Assembly (NCBI RefSeq): GCF_009709675.1
Contig: NZ_WMLB01000023.1
Location: 62,001 to 126,000, forward strand
Length of the DNA stretch: 64,000 nucleotides
Direction of reading: 5' to 3'
Origin: Agromyces bracchium
GTDB taxonomy: Bacteria > Actinomycetota > Actinomycetes > Actinomycetales > Microbacteriaceae
Program-made: the position numbers and the translations under genes
Shown: positions 17,083 through 27,183 of the stretch, in pieces
Numbering within the stretch: the stretch's first letter is position 1
Layout: each line of letters opens with the position of its first letter
The notes under the pieces: model-generated
The model's input: only the letters and a program-made list of their open reading frames with translations
The model's database searches: none
What the model was told of the DNA's origin: nothing

Positions 17083-18594
17083 TCAGTCGCTCGGCTCGCC
17101 CTTCAGCTCGACGACGTTGATCGCCTGCGTGATCGGGTGCACGCCCGACAGTCGCGACGGCATGAGCTGCCGCGTCACGTCCTCGCGGGTCATCAGGCCG
17201 GCCTCGACGACGAGGTCGGCGACCGGCCGCCCGGTCGCGAGCGCGGCCTTCGCGAGCTTCGCCGCCTCGGCGTAGCCGATGAACGGGATGAGCGCCGTGA
17301 TCACGCCGACGCTCGACGCGACCTGCGCCTCGAGGTGCTCGGTGTTCGGCGTGATGCCGTCGACGCAGTTCACGCGGAGGGTCCAGCAGGCCTGACGCAT
17401 CCACGTGATCGACTGCAGGAGCGAGTGCGCGATGACCGGCTCGAACGCGTTGAGCTGCAACTGGCCGTTCTCCGCCGCCATCATGACCGTGACATCCGCC
17501 CCAGCGACCGCGTACGCGACCTGGCTGACCGCTTCGGGAATGACCGGGTTGACCTTGCCCGGCATGATGCTCGAGCCGGCCTGCTTGGGCGGGAGGTGGA
17601 TCTCGCCGAGGCCCGCCTGCGGGCCCGACGAGAGCAGCCGGAGGTCGTTGCAGATCTTCGAGAGCTTGATCGCGCTCCGCTTCAGCGCGCTCGAGAAGGT
17701 CATGAAGACGCCCGTGTCGCTCGTCGCCTCGACGAGGTCGGGAGCGGTCTCGAGACGCTGGCCGGTGATCTCGCTGAGGTGGCGCACGACCGCGGCCGCG
17801 TACCCGGGGTCGGCCGTGATGCCCGTGCCGACGGCCGTGCCGCCGAGGTTCACCTCGGAGAGCAGCTTGATCGTCTCGCGGAGCCGGGCGATGTCCTCGC
17901 CGAGGGTCGTGGCGAACCCGTGGAACTCCTGGCCGAGCGTCATCGGCACCGCGTCCTGCAGCTGCGTGCGGCCGACCTTCAGCACCTCGTGGAACTCGCG
18001 GCCCTTGCGTCCGAACGAGATGCGGAGCAGGTCGAGCTCGGTGAGCATCGTCGTGAGCGACGCGGTCATCGCGAGCTTCAGGGCGGTCGGGTACGTGTCG
18101 TTGGTCGACTGGCTGCGGTTGACGTCGTCGATCGGGTGGATGAGGTCGTAGCGCGCCTTCGGGTAGCCCGCGATCTCGAGCGCGATGTTCGCGATGACCT
18201 CGTTCGCGTTCATGTTCGTCGAGGTGCCCGCGCCGCCCTGGATGACGCCGACCACGAACTGGTCGTGGAACTCGCCGTCGATGATCCGCTGGCACGCCTC
18301 GTCGATCCACGCCTGCTTGCGCGGATCGAGGGCTCCGAGCTCCTTGTTCGCCCGGCACGCCGCCTGCTTCACCTGCGCGAGCGCGACGACGAGCTCGGGG
18401 TAGACGGAGATGGGTCGCTTGGAGATCGGGAAGTTCTGGAGCGCACGCATGGTGTGCACGCCCCAGTAGGCATCTGCGGGGACCTCGACCGAGCCGAGCG
18501 AGTCGGTCTCGGTCCGTGTCTCCGACGTGTTCGTGGGGATCACCTCGTCCTCCGATCGGACGCTCTCGACGGTGTTGGGATGCGGTCGGGTCAT
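17083..18594 (-). CDS. aspA: Aspartate ammonia-lyase
   Basis: 503 residues from MTRPHPNTVESVRSE; an N-terminal extension of about 30 residues precedes the fold. It converts L-aspartate to fumarate and ammonia. Family motifs are GGAGTSTNMNANEV, VNRSQSTNDTYPTALK, GRTQLQDAVP, and the signature loop GSSIMPGKVNPVIPE with the catalytic Ser. These match aspartase rather than class II fumarase (the loop and the length also fit). Just upstream, on the same strand, is the ethanolamine-type permease gene, separated by 256 bp, so the two are probably separate units. Confidence 0.93.
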   Translation of the reverse strand: MTRPHPNTVESVRSEDEVIPTNTSETRTETDSLGSVEVPADAYWGVHTMRALQNFPISKRPISVYPELVVALAQVKQAACRANKELGALDPRKQAWIDEACQRIIDGEFHDQFVVGVIQGGAGTSTNMNANEVIANIALEIAGYPKARYDLIHPIDDVNRSQSTNDTYPTALKLAMTASLTTMLTELDLLRISFGRKGREFHEVLKVGRTQLQDAVPMTLGQEFHGFATTLGEDIARLRETIKLLSEVNLGGTAVGTGITADPGYAAAVVRHLSEITGQRLETAPDLVEATSDTGVFMTFSSALKRSAIKLSKICNDLRLLSSGPQAGLGEIHLPPKQAGSSIMPGKVNPVIPEAVSQVAYAVAGADVTVMMAAENGQLQLNAFEPVIAHSLLQSITWMRQACWTLRVNCVDGITPNTEHLEAQVASSVGVITALIPFIGYAEAAKLAKAALATGRPVADLVVEAGLMTREDVTRQLMPSRLSGVHPITQAINVVELKGEPSD

Positions 18595-18692
18595 CGACAC
18601 TTCGGCTCCATCGCCTCGGGGACACGCGCGGGATCGCCGCGCTCGGTACGTCCCCGAGCCTACTCGCGGGTCCGCGGCGATTCGTGCTGCAG

Positions 18693-18850: not shown

Positions 18851-20437
18851 CTACTCCTTCGCGTCCTCGACGGCCTCCGCACTCCGCGGGTCGTCGACAC
18901 CGTCCGACGCGAGGATCTCCTCCTCGATCGCGCCGCCGTAGCCCTCGGCCTGCGGGTCGCCGTGGAGGCCGCCGGAGACCGCGTACTCCTCCTCGGGCGA
19001 GAGGACGAGGTGGTTGCGGCCGTACAGGCCGAAGCCGATGAGCATGACGGCGTACACCACGGCGATGGCGATGATCGCCGGCACGAAGGTCGGGTTGAGC
19101 AGGAACCCGAGGAAGATGAGCGCGGAGATCGCCGCCGCGGTGATCGCGCCGGGCACGCCCCAGGGGCTGCGGTACGGCCGCTTGGCGTTCGGGTACTTCC
19201 GGCGCAGGATCACGTACGAGACCATCTGCAGCAGGTACGCGAGCACGGCACCCCACACCGCGATGTTCAGCACGATCGCGCCGGCGACGGCACCGGCGCC
19301 CTCGGCGTCGACGCGGGCGAGCACGTCGAGCACCACGAGGGCGACGAACCCGATCACCGCGCCCGCCACGAGTGCGACCCAGGGCGTCTGCCGCTTGCCG
19401 GTGAGCGAGAGGAACTTCGGGTAGTACCCGGCGCGCGAGAGCGAGTACATGTTGCGCCCGTAGGCGAACATGATGCCCTGGAGCGACGCGAGCAGGCCGA
19501 TCAGCGCGAACAGCGCCAGCACCGCGGCGACCTCGTCGCCCACGATCGCCCGGAAGCCGTCCAGGAGGGGTTCGCCTGCGACGCCGGTCGCCTCGGCCCC
19601 GATGACGCCCGTGTTGAGGAACAGCACGAGCAGCCCCGTGATGATGAGCGTCGCGCGCGCGATGATCCCGGCCCTGGGGATGTCGCGCACGGGATCGCGC
19701 GACTCCTCGGCGGCGAGCGGCAGCTCCTCGATGCCGAGGAAGAACCACATCGCGAACGGCAGGGCGAACAGGATCGGCAGGACGCCGTGCGGGAGGAATG
19801 CCGACTGGCCTGCGTCGGGCGCGATGTCGAACAGCTTGTCCCAGGAGAACTGGCCGGAGAAGAGGGCCATGGCGCTGAAGACGAGCAGGATCGCGATGGA
19901 GATGATGGAGACGACGATCGCGAACTTGAACGAGATGCTCGCGCCGGCGGCGTTGATCCCGATGAAGATGAGGTAGAGCACGACCCACCACACCCAGCCG
20001 GGCAGGGAGAAGCCGAGCAGCTCGCTCGTGATCGCGTCCGCGTAGGAGGCCGAGAAGAAGACGATCACCGCGGTGGTCGCGACGTACTCGATGGTCTCCG
20101 CGAGTCCCGTGACGAAACCGCCCCACGGGCCCATCGCGGCGCGCGAGAACGAGTACGCCCCGCCCGTGTGCGGCATGGCGGACGCCATCTCGCCGATCGA
20201 GAAGATCAGGCCGTAGTACATGACGACGAGGATCGCGAACGCGATGAGCATGCCGCCGAAGCCGGCGAAGTCGATGCCGAAGTTCCATCCGGAGAAGTCG
20301 CCGGAGATGACGGCGGCGACGGCGAGGCCCCAGAGGCCCCACACGCCCGCGGTGCGGGTGAGCTTGCGTTTCTCGAAGTATCCCTGGTCGGCGGTCGTGT
20401 ACGTCACGCCCGAGACCTTCAGGGTGTCTTTCGTCAT
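18851..20437 (-). CDS. APC-family amino acid permease, ethanolamine permease (Eat/EutP) type
   Basis: 528 residues with 12 predicted membrane helices. The start MTKDTLKVSGVTYTTAD follows AGGAG. The region FEKRKLTRTAGVWGLWG, AAVISGDFSGWNFGIDF and RAAMGPWGGFVTG closely follows the pattern of proton-coupled ethanolamine permeases, not the general amino acid carriers. The C-terminal tail of about 60 residues is acidic and cytosolic. The gene diverges from the ligase gene of the gamma-glutamyl cluster, supporting its role as the importer of that cluster's amine substrate. Ethanolamine is the favoured substrate; another small amine remains possible. Confidence 0.85.
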   Translation of the reverse strand: MTKDTLKVSGVTYTTADQGYFEKRKLTRTAGVWGLWGLAVAAVISGDFSGWNFGIDFAGFGGMLIAFAILVVMYYGLIFSIGEMASAMPHTGGAYSFSRAAMGPWGGFVTGLAETIEYVATTAVIVFFSASYADAITSELLGFSLPGWVWWVVLYLIFIGINAAGASISFKFAIVVSIISIAILLVFSAMALFSGQFSWDKLFDIAPDAGQSAFLPHGVLPILFALPFAMWFFLGIEELPLAAEESRDPVRDIPRAGIIARATLIITGLLVLFLNTGVIGAEATGVAGEPLLDGFRAIVGDEVAAVLALFALIGLLASLQGIMFAYGRNMYSLSRAGYYPKFLSLTGKRQTPWVALVAGAVIGFVALVVLDVLARVDAEGAGAVAGAIVLNIAVWGAVLAYLLQMVSYVILRRKYPNAKRPYRSPWGVPGAITAAAISALIFLGFLLNPTFVPAIIAIAVVYAVMLIGFGLYGRNHLVLSPEEEYAVSGGLHGDPQAEGYGGAIEEEILASDGVDDPRSAEAVEDAKE

Positions 20438-20592
20438 GGCGCTCCTGTTCCTCATCGCGCGGGCCTCTGGGGGCGGGCGCGGGCTGCGATGGTGTGCGCC
20501 ACATGATAGGGGCGGCAATGGTTGCTCGTACAGACCTTTTTCGTGCAGATTCGCCGATGGCATCTCTGGCTCATGCGATCAGCCCGTGGTGT

Positions 20593-20615
20593 AATGGTCG
20601 CCGAACCCGACCATT
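20593..20615. promoter_or_regulatory. Inverted repeat, candidate operator of the GntR regulator
   Basis: Perfect 8-bp arms AATGGTCG and CGACCATT, 7 bp apart, centred 34 bp before the ATG of the ligase gene and in the divergent interval shared with the permease. Its GGTC...GACC layout suits FadR-type GntR proteins, and such a regulator is encoded at the end of the cluster. The rest of the 200-bp interval holds no gene. Confidence 0.55.
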
Positions 20616-20637
20616 TCCACGCGAGGAGGCGCTCGAC

Positions 20638-22005
20638 ATGTCGGCACCCACCGGATTCCTGACGCTCGACGACCTGCGCGCGGCGGTCGCGGACGGCCAC
20701 GTCGACACGGTGATCGTCGCCTTCACCGACATGCAGGGACGCCTCGTCGGCAAGCGCGCGTCGGCCCGCCTGTTCCTCGAGGAGATCGCGCACCACGGCG
20801 CCGAGGCGTGCAACTACCTCCTCGCGGTCGACGTCGAGATGAACACCGTCGACGGGTACGAGATGTCCAGCTGGGAACGCGGGTACGGCGACATGGCACT
20901 CGTCCCCGACCTCGCCACGTTGCGCATGGCGCCATGGCTCGAGTCGACCGCGCTCGTCACGGCCGACCTGCAGTGGCTCGACGGGCGACCCGTCGAGGCA
21001 TCGCCCCGTCGCATCCTGCAGCGCCAGCTCGAGCGGCTCGCCGAGCGCGGACTCACCGCGCACGTCGGCACCGAACTCGAGTTCATCGTCTTCGACGACG
21101 GGTACCGGGACGCCTGGCGCAAGGGCTACCGCGACCTCACGCCCGCGAGCGACTACAACATCGACTACGCGCTGCTCGCGTCCACCCGGATGGAACCGCT
21201 GCTCCGCGACATCCGCAACGCCATGGACGGCGCCGGCATGTACTGCGAGGGCGTCAAGGGCGAGTGCAACCTCGGCCAGCAGGAGATCGCGTTCCGGTAC
21301 ACCGACGCGCTCGGCACCTGCGACAACCACTCGATCTACAAGAACGGCGCGAAGGAGATCGCCGATCGCCACGGCAAGTCGCTGACGTTCATGGCGAAGT
21401 TCAACGAGCGCGAGGGCAACAGCTGCCACATCCACATCTCGCTGCGCGGCGAGGGCGGCAGCGCGGTGCTCAGCGACGAGTCGCAGCCGCACGGCATGTC
21501 GACGCTGTTCCGCCACTTCCTCGGCGGCCAGATCGCCGCGATGCGCGAGCTCACGCTCTTCTCCGCGCCGAACGTCAACTCCTACAAGCGCTACGTCGCG
21601 GGCAGCTTCGCTCCCACCGCGATCGCGTGGGGGCTCGACAACCGCACCTGCGCCCTCCGGGTCGTCGGCCACGGCCTCGGCATGCGCGTGGAGAACCGGG
21701 TGCCCGGCGGCGACGTCAACCAGTACCTCGCCGTGGCCGCGCTCATCGCCGCCGGGCTCTACGGCATCGACCACGAGCTCGAGCCGGGCGACGTCTTCGT
21801 CGGCAACGCCTACGAGAGCGACGTCGAGCGCGTGCCGACCTCGCTGCGCGAATCGTCCGAGCTGTTCGCGGCATCGGATGTCGCGCGCGCCGCGTTCGGC
21901 GACGAGGTCGTCGAGCACTACCTCAACAACGCGCGCGTCGAACTCGCCGCGTACGAGGCGGCCGTCACCGACTGGGAGCGGATCCGTGGCTTCGAGCGCT
22001 TCTGA
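20638..22005 (+). CDS. Glutamine synthetase-like gamma-glutamyl ligase (GlnA4/PuuA family)
   Basis: 455 residues; GAGGAGG stands 8 nt before the ATG. The ATP-dependent ligase fold is complete: GTELEFIVFDD, CEGVKGECNLGQQEI, GNSCHIHIS, NSYKRYVAGSFAP and RVENRVPGGDVNQYLA. It is not the housekeeping GlnA: no adenylylation loop is evident and the N-terminus begins with a short beta-grasp. GlnA4 of Streptomyces coelicolor glutamylates ethanolamine and PuuA of E. coli putrescine. The neighbouring ethanolamine-type permease and the presence of an alcohol dehydrogenase instead of an amine oxidase favour ethanolamine. First gene of a five-gene unit. Confidence 0.9.
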   Translation: MSAPTGFLTLDDLRAAVADGHVDTVIVAFTDMQGRLVGKRASARLFLEEIAHHGAEACNYLLAVDVEMNTVDGYEMSSWERGYGDMALVPDLATLRMAPWLESTALVTADLQWLDGRPVEASPRRILQRQLERLAERGLTAHVGTELEFIVFDDGYRDAWRKGYRDLTPASDYNIDYALLASTRMEPLLRDIRNAMDGAGMYCEGVKGECNLGQQEIAFRYTDALGTCDNHSIYKNGAKEIADRHGKSLTFMAKFNEREGNSCHIHISLRGEGGSAVLSDESQPHGMSTLFRHFLGGQIAAMRELTLFSAPNVNSYKRYVAGSFAPTAIAWGLDNRTCALRVVGHGLGMRVENRVPGGDVNQYLAVAALIAAGLYGIDHELEPGDVFVGNAYESDVERVPTSLRESSELFAASDVARAAFGDEVVEHYLNNARVELAAYEAAVTDWERIRGFERF

Positions 22006-22768
22006 CGGCGACGCGGCACCCGCACCCGCGCCGCTCATCGGCGTGACGACCTACCTGGAGCGTTCGCAGACCGGCGTATGGGACCTGCCCGCGTCCTTCC
22101 TGCCCAAGGTCTACCTCGACGCGGTGACGGACGCGGGCGGGGTCGCCGTGCTGCTGCCGCCCCAGCCCGTCACCCCGGCGATCGCCCGACGCGTGGTCGA
22201 CACCCTCGACGGGCTCATCGTCGCGGGCGGCGCCGACGTCGATCCGCGCCGCTACGGGCAGGAGCCCCACGAACGCACGGGGGCTCCGCGCACCGACCGC
22301 GACACGTGGGAGGACGCGCTGCTCACCGCGGCGATCGAACGCGACGTGCCGTTCCTCGGCATCTGCCGGGGCGCGCAGGTGCTGAACGTCGCCCTGGGCG
22401 GAACGCTCGTGCAGCACCTTCCCGATGTCGTCGGCCACGAGGGCTACCAGCCGGCGCCCGCGGTCTTCGGCGAGACCGACGTCGCGGTCGAGCGCGGGAG
22501 CCTGCTCGACGCGGTGCTCGGCGATGCCGACGAACCGCGCGGCACGTTGCCCGTGCACGTCTACCACCACCAGGCCATCGACCGGGTCGCCGACGGCCTC
22601 ACGGTGACCGCACGCACCTCCGAGGGCGTCATCGAGGCCGTCGAACTCGACGACGCGACCTTCGGCCTGGCCGTGCAGTGGCACCCGGAGGAGAACGCCG
22701 CGGACCGTCGCCTGTTCGCCGGCCTCGTCGCGGCGGCCCGCACCCAGCACAGCAGGAGGAATCCGTAA
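21986..22768 (+). CDS. Gamma-glutamyl amide hydrolase, class I amidotransferase family (PuuD-like)
   Basis: 260 residues from a GTG lying inside the end of the ligase gene (20-bp overlap), so translation is coupled. Motifs: LIVAGGADVDPRRYGQ, nucleophile Cys in FLGICRGAQVLN, and the His-Glu pair in VQWHPEEN. PuuD hydrolyses gamma-glutamyl-GABA to glutamate and GABA. In an ethanolamine pathway the matching substrate would be gamma-glutamylglycine, releasing glycine and returning glutamate. The next gene starts 1 nt after its stop. Confidence 0.9.
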   Translation: MASSASDGDAAPAPAPLIGVTTYLERSQTGVWDLPASFLPKVYLDAVTDAGGVAVLLPPQPVTPAIARRVVDTLDGLIVAGGADVDPRRYGQEPHERTGAPRTDRDTWEDALLTAAIERDVPFLGICRGAQVLNVALGGTLVQHLPDVVGHEGYQPAPAVFGETDVAVERGSLLDAVLGDADEPRGTLPVHVYHHQAIDRVADGLTVTARTSEGVIEAVELDDATFGLAVQWHPEENAADRRLFAGLVAAARTQHSRRNP

Positions 22769-24142
22769 GTGAGCACCCACACCATCGTCAACCCGGCCGA
22801 CGAGACCGTCGTCACGACGGTCGCCTCGGCCGGCATCGAGGAGACGGATGCCGCGATCGCACGCGCCGCGACCGCGCAGCGCGATTGGGCTCGCCTGGCG
22901 CCCGCCGACCGCGCGCGCCTGCTGCGCCGATTCGCCGACGCGGTCGACGGCGCGGTGGAGGAGCTCGCGTCGATCGAGGTCGCCAACTCGGGCCATCCGA
23001 TCGGCCAGGCGCGGTGGGAGGCCGGGCACGTCCGCGACGTCCTCGAGTACTCCGCCGCCGCGCCCGAGCGGCTCTCCGGCCGCCAGATCCCCGTCGCGGG
23101 CGGGCTCGACGTGACCTTCCACGAGCCGCTGGGCGTCGTCGGCGTCATCACGCCGTGGAACTTCCCCATGACGATCGCCTCCTGGGGCTTCGCCCCCGCG
23201 CTCGCCGCCGGCAACGCCGTCGTGCTGAAGCCGGCCGAGTGGACCCCGCTCACGAGCCTGCGCCTCGCCGAGCTCGGCCTCGAGGCCGGGCTGCCCGACG
23301 GGCTCTTCCAGGTGATCCCCGGCAAGGGGTCGGTCGTCGGCGAGCGCTTCGTGACGAACGAGACGGTCCGCAAGGTCGTCTTCACCGGCTCGACCGAGGT
23401 CGGCAAGCACATCATGGCCGGCTGCGCCGCACAGGTGAAGCGCGTGACGCTCGAACTCGGCGGGAAGAGCGCGAACATCGTCTTCGCCGACGCCGACCTC
23501 GAGCTGGCTGCGGCGACCGCGCCGTACGGCGTCTTCGAGAACGCCGGGCAGGACTGCTGCGCGCGCAGCCGCATCCTCGTCGAGCGCAGCGCCTACGACC
23601 GGTTCATGGAACTGCTCGAGCCCGCCGTGCAGGGCGTCGCGGTCGGCGATCCCGCCGACGAGGGGACCGAGATGGGACCGCTCGTCGCGCGCACCCACCT
23701 CGAGCGGGTGGCGTCGTTCGTGCCGGATGACGCGGACGTCGCCTTCCGCGGCACGGCACCGACCGGCCCCGGCCACTGGTTCCCGCCGACCGTGCTGACG
23801 CCCTCCCGCGACGCGCGCGTCGCCCGGGAGGAGGTCTTCGGGCCTGTCGTCTCGGTGTTCCCGTTCGACGACGAGGCCGACGCCGTCCGGTTCGCCAACG
23901 CCACCGAGTACGGCCTGTCGGGCTCGATCTGGACAGGGGACCTCAGCCGCGGCATCCGCGTCGCCCGGGCCGTCGAGTCGGGCAACCTCTCGGTCAACTC
24001 GCACTCGTCCGTGCGGTACTCGACCCCGTTCGGCGGGTTCAAGCAGTCGGGTCTCGGGCGCGAGCTCGGACCCGACGCGCCGCTCGCGTTCACCGAGACC
24101 AAGAACGTCTTCTTCGCCGTCGACCAGCCGGTGGTCGAGTAG
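22769..24142 (+). CDS. Aldehyde dehydrogenase (PuuC-like) of the gamma-glutamyl amine cluster
   Basis: 457 residues from a GTG directly after the previous stop (AGGAGG 7-12 nt upstream). ITPWNFPMTIASWGFAPALA binds NAD, Glu of TLELGGKSAN is the base and Cys of NAGQDCCARSRI the nucleophile; FGGFKQSGLGRELG closes the fold. In its cluster it should oxidise the gamma-glutamyl aldehyde to the acid (gamma-glutamylglycine for ethanolamine, gamma-glutamyl-GABA for putrescine). Confidence 0.92.
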   Translation: MSTHTIVNPADETVVTTVASAGIEETDAAIARAATAQRDWARLAPADRARLLRRFADAVDGAVEELASIEVANSGHPIGQARWEAGHVRDVLEYSAAAPERLSGRQIPVAGGLDVTFHEPLGVVGVITPWNFPMTIASWGFAPALAAGNAVVLKPAEWTPLTSLRLAELGLEAGLPDGLFQVIPGKGSVVGERFVTNETVRKVVFTGSTEVGKHIMAGCAAQVKRVTLELGGKSANIVFADADLELAAATAPYGVFENAGQDCCARSRILVERSAYDRFMELLEPAVQGVAVGDPADEGTEMGPLVARTHLERVASFVPDDADVAFRGTAPTGPGHWFPPTVLTPSRDARVAREEVFGPVVSVFPFDDEADAVRFANATEYGLSGSIWTGDLSRGIRVARAVESGNLSVNSHSSVRYSTPFGGFKQSGLGRELGPDAPLAFTETKNVFFAVDQPVVE

Positions 24143-24184
24143 CGGCGACGCCGCGTACGAGGCCCCGCACACCAAAGGAGCACC

Positions 24185-24976
24185 ATGGCAGACCTCACCC
24201 AGATCGACCTCACCCAGCGCCTCGCCGGACGCGTCGCCGTCATCACCGGCGGAGCCTCCGGAATCGGTCTCGCGACCGCGAAGCGCCTCGCCGCCGAGGG
24301 CGCGAAGGTCGTGATCGGCGACCTCGACCGGGCGTCGGGCGAGGCCGCGGCATCCGCCGTCGACGGACTGTTCGTGCCGGTCGACGTCACCGACCAGGAG
24401 CAGGTCGACCACCTCTTCGACGAGGCCGCGCGCGTCTACGGCTCGGTCGACATCGCCTTCAACAACGCCGGGATCTCACCGCCCGACGACGACTCGATCG
24501 AGACGACCGAGCTGCCCGCCTGGCAGAAGGTGCAGGACGTCAACCTGAAGTCCGTCTACCTCTGCTCGCGCGCCGCACTGCGCCACATGGTCGCGCAGGG
24601 CCGCGGGTCGATCATCAACACGGCGTCGTTCGTCGCCGTGCTGGGTTCGGCGACCTCGCAGATCTCGTACACGGCCTCGAAGGGCGGCGTGCTCGCGATG
24701 AGCCGCGAGCTCGGCGTCCAGTTCGCGCGGCAGGGCATCCGGGTCAACGCGCTCTGCCCGGGGCCGGTGAACACGCCGCTGCTGCAGGAGCTGTTCGCCA
24801 AGGACCCGGAGCGCGCCCAGCGCCGCCTCGTGCACGTGCCCGTGGGCCGGTTCGCCGAGCCGCAGGAGCTCGCTGCCGCCGTCGCGTTCCTCGCGAGCGA
24901 CGACGCGTCGTTCATCACGGGCTCGACCTTCCTCGTCGACGGCGGGATCAGCTCCGCCTACGTGACGCCGCTCTAG
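24185..24976 (+). CDS. Short-chain dehydrogenase/reductase, probable alcohol dehydrogenase of the cluster
   Basis: 263 residues with a good AAAGGAG site. Motifs: AVITGGASGIGLATAK (Rossmann), NNAGIS, active-site Ser then YTASKGG (Tyr-x3-Lys), CPGPVNTPLL, and the C-terminal ITGSTFLVDGG. It is a classical NAD(H)-type SDR (Asp follows the second strand in VIGDLDRA, favouring NAD). In the cluster it could oxidise the alcohol of gamma-glutamylethanolamide to the aldehyde used by the aldehyde dehydrogenase. That step is inference; a role as a general oxoacyl reductase cannot be excluded. Confidence 0.88.
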   Translation: MADLTQIDLTQRLAGRVAVITGGASGIGLATAKRLAAEGAKVVIGDLDRASGEAAASAVDGLFVPVDVTDQEQVDHLFDEAARVYGSVDIAFNNAGISPPDDDSIETTELPAWQKVQDVNLKSVYLCSRAALRHMVAQGRGSIINTASFVAVLGSATSQISYTASKGGVLAMSRELGVQFARQGIRVNALCPGPVNTPLLQELFAKDPERAQRRLVHVPVGRFAEPQELAAAVAFLASDDASFITGSTFLVDGGISSAYVTPL

Positions 24977-24988
24977 GCTCGGAGCATG
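24974..24988 (+). promoter_or_regulatory. Predicted leaderless promoter (-10) of the GntR regulator
   Basis: TAGGCT (24974-24979) overlaps the SDR stop; 6 nt later is the ATG at 24986. This would let the regulator be made independently of the operon. Confidence 0.5.
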
Positions 24989-25777
24989 GGCGGGGACGAC
25001 GACGACGACGGCGCGCGGCGGGTGAACGCGGACGGCGCGGCCGAGCCCGCGGAGGTGCTCGACGCCGGACTCCTGCTCACCCCGGCCCGGCCCGCGAACG
25101 CGTTCGAGGAGACCGTGCAGCGGCTGCTGCAGTCGATCCGACTCGGGCTCATCGCCCCGGGCGAGCGCCTGCCCGCCGAGCGCGAGCTCGCCGGCATGCT
25201 CGAGGTGAGCCGCGACACGCTGCGCGAGGCGATCGGCTCGCTCGCCGAGGCCGGCTGGGTGGTCTCGCGGAGAGGCCGCTACGGCGGCACGTTCGTGGCC
25301 GACCCGCCGCCGGAGCGCACGTCGCCGCACTCGCCCGCGCCCCCGGCGGATCCCGCGGCGCTCGCCGCCGACCTCGAGGACACGCTCGCGCTGCGCGCGG
25401 TCGTCGAGGTCGGTTCCGCGCGTCGCGCCGCCGAACGTCCGCTCCCGGCATCCGACCGGGAACGCCTGTGGCAGGCCTACCGGGACTGCCACGACGCCGA
25501 CCCCGCCCAGTACCGCGTGGCGGACTCGCGGTTCCACCTGCTCGTGGCCGAACTCGTCGGCGTGCCGAGCGTCGTGCGCCTCATGGCCGACGCGCGCATG
25601 CGGATCAACGCCTACCTCGACGGCATCCCGCTGCTCGCGCCGAACATCTCGCACTCGGACGACCAGCACCGAGCGATCGCCGAGGCGATCCTCCGGGGTT
25701 CCGCCGACGATGCCGCACGGGCGATGGGCGAGCACCTCGAGGGCACCGAAGCGCTGCTGCGGGGGTTCTACGGCTGA
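24986..25777 (+). CDS. GntR-family regulator, FadR subfamily
   Basis: 263 residues. After an acidic, disordered start, residues about 38-105 form the winged helix (IRLGLIAPGERLPAERELAG, VSRDTLREAIGSLAEAGWVV). The C-terminal FCD domain (about 125-255) has the metal-binding pattern of Asp and His residues: DSRFHLLVAELVG, DDQHRAIAEAILRG. It lies 9 bp after the SDR gene and is the natural regulator of the cluster, with the ligand probably a pathway amine or gamma-glutamyl intermediate. Its candidate operator is the inverted repeat at 20593-20615. Confidence 0.88.
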   Translation: MGGDDDDDGARRVNADGAAEPAEVLDAGLLLTPARPANAFEETVQRLLQSIRLGLIAPGERLPAERELAGMLEVSRDTLREAIGSLAEAGWVVSRRGRYGGTFVADPPPERTSPHSPAPPADPAALAADLEDTLALRAVVEVGSARRAAERPLPASDRERLWQAYRDCHDADPAQYRVADSRFHLLVAELVGVPSVVRLMADARMRINAYLDGIPLLAPNISHSDDQHRAIAEAILRGSADDAARAMGEHLEGTEALLRGFYG

Positions 25778-25806: not shown

Positions 25807-27183
25807 TCAGACGCCGGTGACCTCGAACAGGCGCCACTCCCCCGGCACGCCCTTCAGGACGTGCGTGCCGCGCTCCTCGAACCCGATGCCCGACCCGACC
25901 ACGAGATCCTTCACGGTGCTCGAGGCGAAGGCCGTCCCCGCCGACGCCTGCGACATGACGCGGGAGGCCAGGTGCACCGCGATCCCGGCGACGTCGTCGC
26001 CCTGGAACTCGACCTCGCCGCTGTGCAGCCCGGCCCTGACCTCGAGGCCGAGCGAACGCACCGCCGAGGCGACCTCCCACGCACACCTGACGGCGCGCGC
26101 CGGCCCGTCGAACAGGGCGAGGAACCCGTCGCCGGTCGAGGAGACGTGGGTGCCGCGATACCGCTCGATCCTCGAGCGCACCAGCTCGTCGTGCGCGAGC
26201 TTGAGGTCGAGCCATCGCTGGTCGCCGAGCCGCGCGGCGAGGTCGGTCGATCCGACGATGTCGGTGAAGAGCACCGTCGCGAGCACGCGGTCGTCGACCG
26301 GTGCCGGTCGGTCGCCGGTGACGAATTCCTCGACCTCGTCGAGGAGCAGGTCCGACTCGACGAAGGGCGGGTACCAGGCCGTGCCCGGCAGCTCGACGAG
26401 CCGCGCGCCCGGGATGTGCTCGGCGAGGTAGCGCCCCATCGGGAGCCGGTAGTGCGGGTTCCGCCTCTTGTGCAGGACGAGCGTCGGGACCTGGATGCTC
26501 GGCAGCACCGATCGCACGTCGAGCTGGAGCACCCATTCGTAGATCCGGGTCGCCGCGGCCGGGGATGCCGACAGGCGCATGTAGCGGCCGACCCATCGTT
26601 GCAGCTGGGGGTCGTCGGCGACGTCGGGTGCGGTGAGCTGCAGGACGGCCCCCGTGCCCCAGTTGCGGCGCCACTCCCCGAGCAGCAGTTCCGCCGTCGG
26701 CTCGGGGATGCCGATCGGGTAGTCGGGCGCGCGGAGCAGGCGCGCGAAGGAGTTGACGAGCACGAGCGCGTCGGTGCGCTGCGGATGGCTCGCCGCGAGC
26801 ACCATCGCCATGGGCCCGCCCTCCGCATCGCCGAGGAGCGTCGCGGACCTCGATCCGGCGGCGTCGAGTACGGCGCGCGCGTCGTCGATCCAGTGCTCGA
26901 GCGTCGGCAGCGCACCCATCGCGACGGGATCCGACAGGCCGGCGCCGCGCTTGTCGAAGCAGATGACGCGTGCGAACCGTGCCAGCCGCTCGAGGTAGCG
27001 CGCCATCGACGGGTGCTCCCACATCACCTCGATGTTGCTCGCCCAGTTGCCGATGAACACGAGGTCGCGTGGTCCGCGGCCGAACACCTGGTAGGCGACG
27101 GAGCCCTCCTCGCTCTCGGCGTAGCGGGGCTCGGGCGCCCCCGATCCCCACGTCGAGATCCCCTGCCCGTGCTCCGCGTCCAT
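25807..27183 (-). CDS. Alpha/beta-hydrolase fused to a class III adenylate cyclase (Rv1900c-like)
   Basis: 458 residues. Residues about 25-285 are an alpha/beta-hydrolase (FIGNWASNIEVMW, CFDKRGAGLSD, LVLHKRRNPHYRLPMG). The nucleophile elbow reads GDAEG, so the usual Ser is Ala120 and esterase activity is doubtful. Residues about 295-455 are the cyclase domain: metal Asp residues in VLFTDIVGSTD and STGDGFLALF, and GIAVHLASRV, where the ribose/transition-state Asn position is His. The arrangement matches Mycobacterium tuberculosis Rv1900c. A likely role is cAMP synthesis controlled by a ligand-binding hydrolase domain. Leadered: GGGGGAG precedes the ATG. Confidence 0.88.
   Translation of the reverse strand: MDAEHGQGISTWGSGAPEPRYAESEEGSVAYQVFGRGPRDLVFIGNWASNIEVMWEHPSMARYLERLARFARVICFDKRGAGLSDPVAMGALPTLEHWIDDARAVLDAAGSRSATLLGDAEGGPMAMVLAASHPQRTDALVLVNSFARLLRAPDYPIGIPEPTAELLLGEWRRNWGTGAVLQLTAPDVADDPQLQRWVGRYMRLSASPAAATRIYEWVLQLDVRSVLPSIQVPTLVLHKRRNPHYRLPMGRYLAEHIPGARLVELPGTAWYPPFVESDLLLDEVEEFVTGDRPAPVDDRVLATVLFTDIVGSTDLAARLGDQRWLDLKLAHDELVRSRIERYRGTHVSSTGDGFLALFDGPARAVRCAWEVASAVRSLGLEVRAGLHSGEVEFQGDDVAGIAVHLASRVMSQASAGTAFASSTVKDLVVGSGIGFEERGTHVLKGVPGEWRLFEVTGV

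Follow-up and report, generated by a model that had tools for sequence, protein, structure and literature searches.

Gene content and organization of the locus

This study concerns six genes of Agromyces bracchium (Actinomycetota, Microbacteriaceae) that are predicted to serve ethanolamine catabolism by gamma-glutamylation. They are located within a stretch of 64,000 nucleotides (hereafter the window) of contig NZ_WMLB01000023.1 (positions 62,001 to 126,000; assembly GCF_009709675.1). All six were confirmed as open reading frames between positions 18851 and 25777 of the window, and have family matches in Pfam and NCBIfam. A permease gene on the minus strand is divergent from five plus-strand genes, encoding (in this order) a ligase, a C26 hydrolase, an aldehyde dehydrogenase (ALDH), a short-chain dehydrogenase/reductase (SDR) and a GntR/FCD regulator. 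An earlier reading of this DNA (the original prediction) had named exactly this set, and each of its members is present. Intergenic gaps between the same-strand genes do not exceed 42 bp, so the five plus-strand genes are likely to form a single transcript, and the recurrence of the layout in relatives argues that the arrangement is not a product of chance.

The permease (18851-20437, minus strand; most likely start ATG at 20437, with AGGAG upstream) is an ethanolamine-type amino acid permease of the APC superfamily. The best of 24 models was the ethanolamine permease TIGR00908 (341.8 bits, below the cut-off of 381.75). The ligase (20638-22005, plus strand; PF00120, 331.8 bits) belongs to the glutamine synthetase superfamily and is a putative gamma-glutamylethanolamide synthetase of the GlnA4 type. 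The next gene (21986-22768, plus strand; PF07722, 216.9 bits), most likely starting from GTG at 21986 and so overlapping the ligase gene by 20 nt, encodes a C26 (class-I glutamine-amidotransferase-type) hydrolase, a putative gamma-glutamylglycine hydrolase. It is followed by genes for the ALDH (22769-24142, plus strand; PF00171, 514.8 bits), a putative gamma-glutamylacetaldehyde dehydrogenase, and the SDR (24185-24976, plus strand), a putative gamma-glutamylethanolamide dehydrogenase. The SDR scored 502.7 bits against NF004713/PRK06057, exceeding the cut-off of 404, and 466.8 bits against PDB 4wec, and its closest matches among titled contigs are those of Agromyces (up to 94% identity). The last gene (24986-25777, plus strand; PF00392 and PF07729; start uncertain) encodes an EpuRI-like GntR/FCD regulator.

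Relationship to the Streptomyces glnA4 cluster

In a 2019 mBio paper (PMC6529630), GlnA4 of Streptomyces coelicolor (SCO1613) is shown to produce gamma-glutamylethanolamide, as the original prediction had noted, and a figure legend calls the enzyme specific for ethanolamine. The genes SCO1610-SCO1615 are given there as encoding a membrane protein, a short-chain dehydrogenase, an aldehyde dehydrogenase, GlnA4, a regulator and a glutamine amidotransferase, respectively; the last is a glutamine amidotransferase in the legend and a member of the formylglutamate amidohydrolase family in the text. The same source mentions a permease in the glnA4 cluster of several other Streptomyces. The whole route to glycine and glutamate via SCO1611, SCO1612 and SCO1615, the SDR step included, was also proposed in that paper, and the work seen in print used purified enzyme for the first gamma-glutamyl step and deduced the later ones. 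The earlier expectation that the window cluster would define the route was thus overtaken in 2019. Judged from its genes, the locus very probably corresponds, in an Agromyces-type version, to the ethanolamine cluster of actinobacteria known as glnA4 (SCO1611-1615), with which it shares an SDR, an ALDH, a glutamine synthetase-like ligase, a regulator and a glutamine-amidotransferase-type hydrolase, and would act by the gamma-glutamyl route. This kind of cluster is already known, and what is added here is the glycine link seen in relatives, the operator pair and the count of ligase-SDR co-occurrence.

Ten primers printed in PMC6529630 were compared with seven loci. The glnA4 primers (forward and reverse, respectively) fell inside the ligase match with 0 and 0 mismatches in locus L026, 1 and 0 in L057, and 2 and 0 in L059. 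Inside the ALDH match, the downstream sco1612 primer was exact in L057 and L059 and had 2 mismatches in L026, and the upstream one had 3, 3 and 5 mismatches in the three loci. The two SCO1614 RT primers matched inside the GntR match with 1-3 mismatches (3 and 1 in L026), and the cores of the four SCO1614 cloning primers had 2-5 mismatches, with 8 of their 12 best places outside the GntR match. From these matches we infer that L026, L057 and L059 are Streptomyces. Locus L026 has the published order (SDR, ALDH and ligase, then divergent GntR and C26 genes), and its proteins share 75% (SDR), 67% (ALDH), 65% (ligase), 50% (C26) and 46% (GntR) identity with those of the window. The two loci differ in that the regulator and hydrolase genes of L026 are divergent from the ligase gene, whereas in the window they belong to one run and it is the permease gene that is divergent.

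The PDB sequences nearest to the window ligase are 11zs (431 bits) and 5dm3 (390 bits; presumably from Chromohalobacter), the next one reaching 172 bits. A tree of 47 ligases (44 hand-picked loci, the window and the two PDB stretches) grouped the window ligase with Microbacteriaceae and mycobacterial loci, adjoining the Streptomyces-like ones, with modest supports there (0.70-0.95); the four ligase paralogues of the host genome formed a separate group (support 1.000) far from it. At the position of glutamine synthetase Glu327 the window ligase has phenylalanine (F324), which is also found in the Streptomyces-like loci, in the loci of family f18 and in both PDB sequences. The same replacement (Glu327 to Phe) is reported for GlnA4 in PMC6529630. 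At ten metal, glutamate and ATP positions, which were selected by motif, the window ligase has the residues of the Streptomyces-like copies. Tryptophan occupies the Glu327 position in 13 of the 44 loci (L037-L045 and L062-L065), as well as in one host paralogue. Ligases of this type possibly act on other amine substrates, to judge from this residue; in the tree, however, most of the Trp loci are closer to the window than are the two PDB sequences, which have Phe, and this counts against a simple residue-substrate rule. Many of the Trp-type relatives are located beside an SDR or ALDH gene. In addition, genome G220 has a second glnA4-like ligase (L058), approximately 17 kb from the SDR copy of that contig.

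The association of ligase and SDR was counted in two genome sets. In the family set (60 genomes of 60 genera; ligase at E <= 1e-90, SDR by NF004713 and always over its cut-off) both were found in the same 27 genomes, the rows being compared by eye and 2 of the 27 ligase matches being partial. In the phylum set (296 genomes; SDR matches at E <= 1e-90) there were 83 ligase matches in 79 genomes, and an SDR match was located within 10 kb of 60 of them (36 of 43 with at least 60% ligase identity, and 24 of the remaining 40). At that identity level, 41 genomes had the ligase, 36 had an SDR over the cut-off and 35 had both (Fisher p of about 4e-38, uncorrected for kinship). The gamma-glutamyl route would offer many Actinomycetota a means of using the head group of a membrane lipid without a microcompartment.

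Two further systems resemble the window cluster. The pathway proposed for Chromohalobacter salexigens, as tabulated in PMC6529630 and PMC9397018, has the same four chemical steps. An iron-dependent dehydrogenase (PF00465) and a formylglutamate amidohydrolase (PF05013) are listed for it, whereas the window cluster has an SDR and a C26 hydrolase; the Chromohalobacter-type pair was absent from the window cluster, to which this search was confined, the rest of the genome not being covered. The locus of Phaeobacter sp. MED193, for which PMC10132767 proposes this chemistry too, likewise combines an ethanolamine gamma-glutamylase, two dehydrogenases and a gamma-glutamylglycine amidohydrolase, but with a TRAP transporter and an RpiR regulator.

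Glycine as the proposed end product

In the proposed mechanism, which is probably right, the permease would bring ethanolamine into the cell and the ligase would use ATP to join it to glutamate, giving gamma-glutamylethanolamide (as shown for S. coelicolor GlnA4). The SDR would then oxidise the free alcohol to gamma-glutamylacetaldehyde, the ALDH would convert this to gamma-glutamylglycine, and the C26 hydrolase would release glycine and glutamate, the latter to be reused. Glycine would enter the glycine cleavage system or be turned into serine, and the GntR protein would repress the divergent promoters via two palindromes until an inducer is present. This route to glycine and glutamate, already put forward in the original prediction, is supported by the gene content, by the homology to the glnA4 cluster and by the linkage, in some relatives, of glycine cleavage (gcv) genes to the cluster.

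The last observation comes from 80 loci chosen by SDR similarity, of differing length and many of them cut by contig ends, in which matches above 150 bits to GcvP were found in 11, to SdaA in 5 and to AspA in 6. In L125, sdaA and the permease gene run leftwards, while the ligase, C26, ALDH, SDR and GntR genes followed by gcvT, gcvH and gcvP run rightwards; gcvT begins 26 bp past the GntR gene, and the three gcv genes and sdaA are over their NCBIfam cut-offs. Locus L107, cut at both contig ends, has the same order from the ALDH gene to gcvP. Among 10 loci titled Leucobacter, gcvP follows the permease gene in 8, faces the ligase gene in L082 and is not seen in L090. In L032 (family f53), gcvT, gcvPA and gcvPB separate the SDR gene from the C26 gene, share their strand and are preceded by a MerR-like reading frame. 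Of the 17 ligase genomes of family f18, 12 have a GcvP match no more than 10 kb from the SDR, one has it some 18 kb away from the ligase, and four have it on another contig. By our own estimate, the chance that one gcvP locus per approximately 3 Mb falls in a given 20-kb span is below 1%. The differences in family and gene order point to three or more independent attachments of gcv genes, and the joining of gcv genes to the cluster, or the presence of sdaA beside it, in some relatives supports glycine as the product. A literature search revealed no paper joining ethanolamine, glutamylation and the glycine cleavage system, and neither this link nor the paired operator described below was found in print. 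The gcv-linked loci offer an independent, testable reason for glycine as the end product, and the compact ones (L125, L107, L032 and those of family f18) are suited to rebuilding the whole path.

A CysK-like gene lies between the SDR gene and gcvPA in 11 of the 12 f18 gcv loci (L030, L148-L150 and L152-L158) and after the SDR gene in L060, where no gcv gene is in view; in L030 and L150, which were tested, it was below the CysK cut-offs.

Downstream of the window permease gene lies a gene for aspartate ammonia-lyase (17083-18600, minus strand; NF008909, 699.7 bits), a possible accessory whose membership in the cluster is uncertain. An aspartase gene after the permease gene is common to the window, L048, L056, L072 and 5 of the 7 loci with an Agromyces title; AspA near the permease was found in L048, L056, L066 and L068-L072, and not in L067 or L104. 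We lean towards the view that the cluster forms the first half of a modular pathway from ethanolamine to pyruvate, and that genes for glycine cleavage, L-serine dehydratase or (in Agromyces) aspartase have been independently attached to this cluster. The route would end at glycine, with ammonia-releasing enzymes disposing of the products, and the GntR repressor would act on a paired AATGGT-N11-ACCATT operator.

Several observations weigh against an ethanolamine cluster ending at glycine. The permease, ligase, hydrolase and ALDH are all under the cut-offs of the listed named NCBIfam models (for the ALDH, 25 of 41 models were listed), and the model exceeded by the SDR is named 3-oxoacyl-ACP reductase. 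Identity between the window permease and that of the Streptomyces-like L057 amounts to only 40%, and 23 of the 83 phylum ligase matches lack an SDR match at a distance of up to 10 kb, the SDR being absent or on another contig. In the comparison loci L027, L028 and L066 the forward glnA4 primer had 5, 5 and 5 mismatches, the reverse one 1, 1 and 4, and the downstream sco1612 primer 3, 2 and 1; such low numbers indicate that the latter two sit on conserved motifs, and only the forward glnA4 primer discriminates well. Linkage to gcv is exceptional: of the 79 phylum genomes with a ligase, at least 13 have GcvP close by (12 from f18 and one from f53). Among the 27 ligase-bearing family genomes, 2 have SdaA no more than 15 kb away from the ligase (0.3 kb in G003 and about 11 kb in G047), and the GcvP match and SdaA of the host itself are on contig C15, away from the cluster.

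Neither the substrate of the cluster nor that of the SDR can be read from sequence, and this leaves some room for other explanations. The same chemistry could serve another small amino alcohol or amine, such as 3-aminopropanol, isopropanolamine, serinol or ethylamine, given that the ligase is 65% identical to its Streptomyces-like copy and the permease falls under the ethanolamine-permease cut-off. This is unlikely, since the legend cited above describes S. coelicolor GlnA4 as ethanolamine-specific, and gcv and sdaA by the cluster in some relatives indicate glycine, which follows from ethanolamine. A little less likely still is another role for the SDR, with the alcohol step performed by an enzyme encoded elsewhere. 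The name of the SDR model would suit such a role; against it, the SDR occurs in the family in exactly the ligase-bearing genomes and adjoins the ligase across the phylum.

Degradation of polyamines or gamma-aminobutyric acid by a Puu-type pathway is very improbable. The locus resembles the Escherichia coli Puu pathway in gamma-glutamylation and in the superfamilies of the ligase, ALDH and C26 hydrolase, and at that level the PuuA, PuuC and PuuD names given in the original prediction (GlnA4 or PuuA for the ligase) can stand. The Puu models themselves were far from reached (PuuA 202 of 650 bits, PuuC 333 of 850 and PuuD 113 of 266), and the six genes include no amine oxidase, the SDR being found instead of PuuB, just as had been predicted; this pathway was set aside. 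The eut pathway was also set aside: EutB (PF06751) was absent from all 60 family genomes, including that of the host (the E. coli control was positive), which bears out the EutB part of the earlier claim that eut genes are lacking, the shell genes of the microcompartment not having been searched.

A different amino-acid permease was found in or near the cluster in 18 loci, e.g. L112, L113 and L120 (Mycolicibacterium) and L040. Its best model, tested on L040, was TIGR00907 (below cut-off), and in L112, L113 and L120 this TIGR00907-type permease occupies the place of the ethanolamine-type permease of the window.

Candidate operators of the GntR regulator

The 200-bp gap between the permease and ligase genes contains two AATGGT-N11-ACCATT palindromes, one (20517-20539) with a single mismatch and the other (20593-20615) perfect and located 22 bp 5' of the ligase start. 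None of 100 shuffles reached two sites, and window shuffles gave none. In the 4.16-Mb host genome the perfect motif occurs once; allowing one mismatch adds the second gap site and one on contig C12, and allowing two gives 22 sites versus 4 for the reversed control. The motif, fixed after seeing the window, was then tested on 114 regions of 250 bp upstream of the ligase (window included). All 12 fixed bases were found in 7 regions (those of the window, of L056 from the same genus and of five Agromyces-titled loci), 11 in 19 and 10 in 24; among a total of 2280 first-order Markov resamples of the individual regions, the frequencies were 0, 0 and about 0.3%, respectively. With a spacer of 10 (without resample control), 12, 11 and 10 bases were matched in 7, 18 and 16 regions, so the exact spacing varies between sites. 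The Streptomyces-like loci L026, L057, L058 and L059 had fewer than 10 fixed bases at spacer 11. A free palindrome scan of the upstream regions returned many unrelated hairpins, and a promoter/terminator scan found nothing.

The two palindromes are likely an operator pair for the GntR protein of the cluster, the natural reader of the site, and its binding there is predicted from the motif. The SCO1614 product is a negative regulator according to PMC6529630, and a word search there for a gel shift, a palindrome or a consensus was negative; the site was not sought in other papers.

Eight exact AAAGGT-N11-ACCTTT palindromes were found in the host, on contigs C8 (2), C23, C26, C27 (2), C29 and C40. 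This motif was rejected as a wider regulon, all eight sites being within approximately 300 bp of predicted gene ends, and the palindromes are probably hairpin terminators or intergenic repeats.

Convergent with the five-gene run is a gene (25807-27183) encoding an alpha/beta hydrolase with an adenylate/guanylate cyclase domain.

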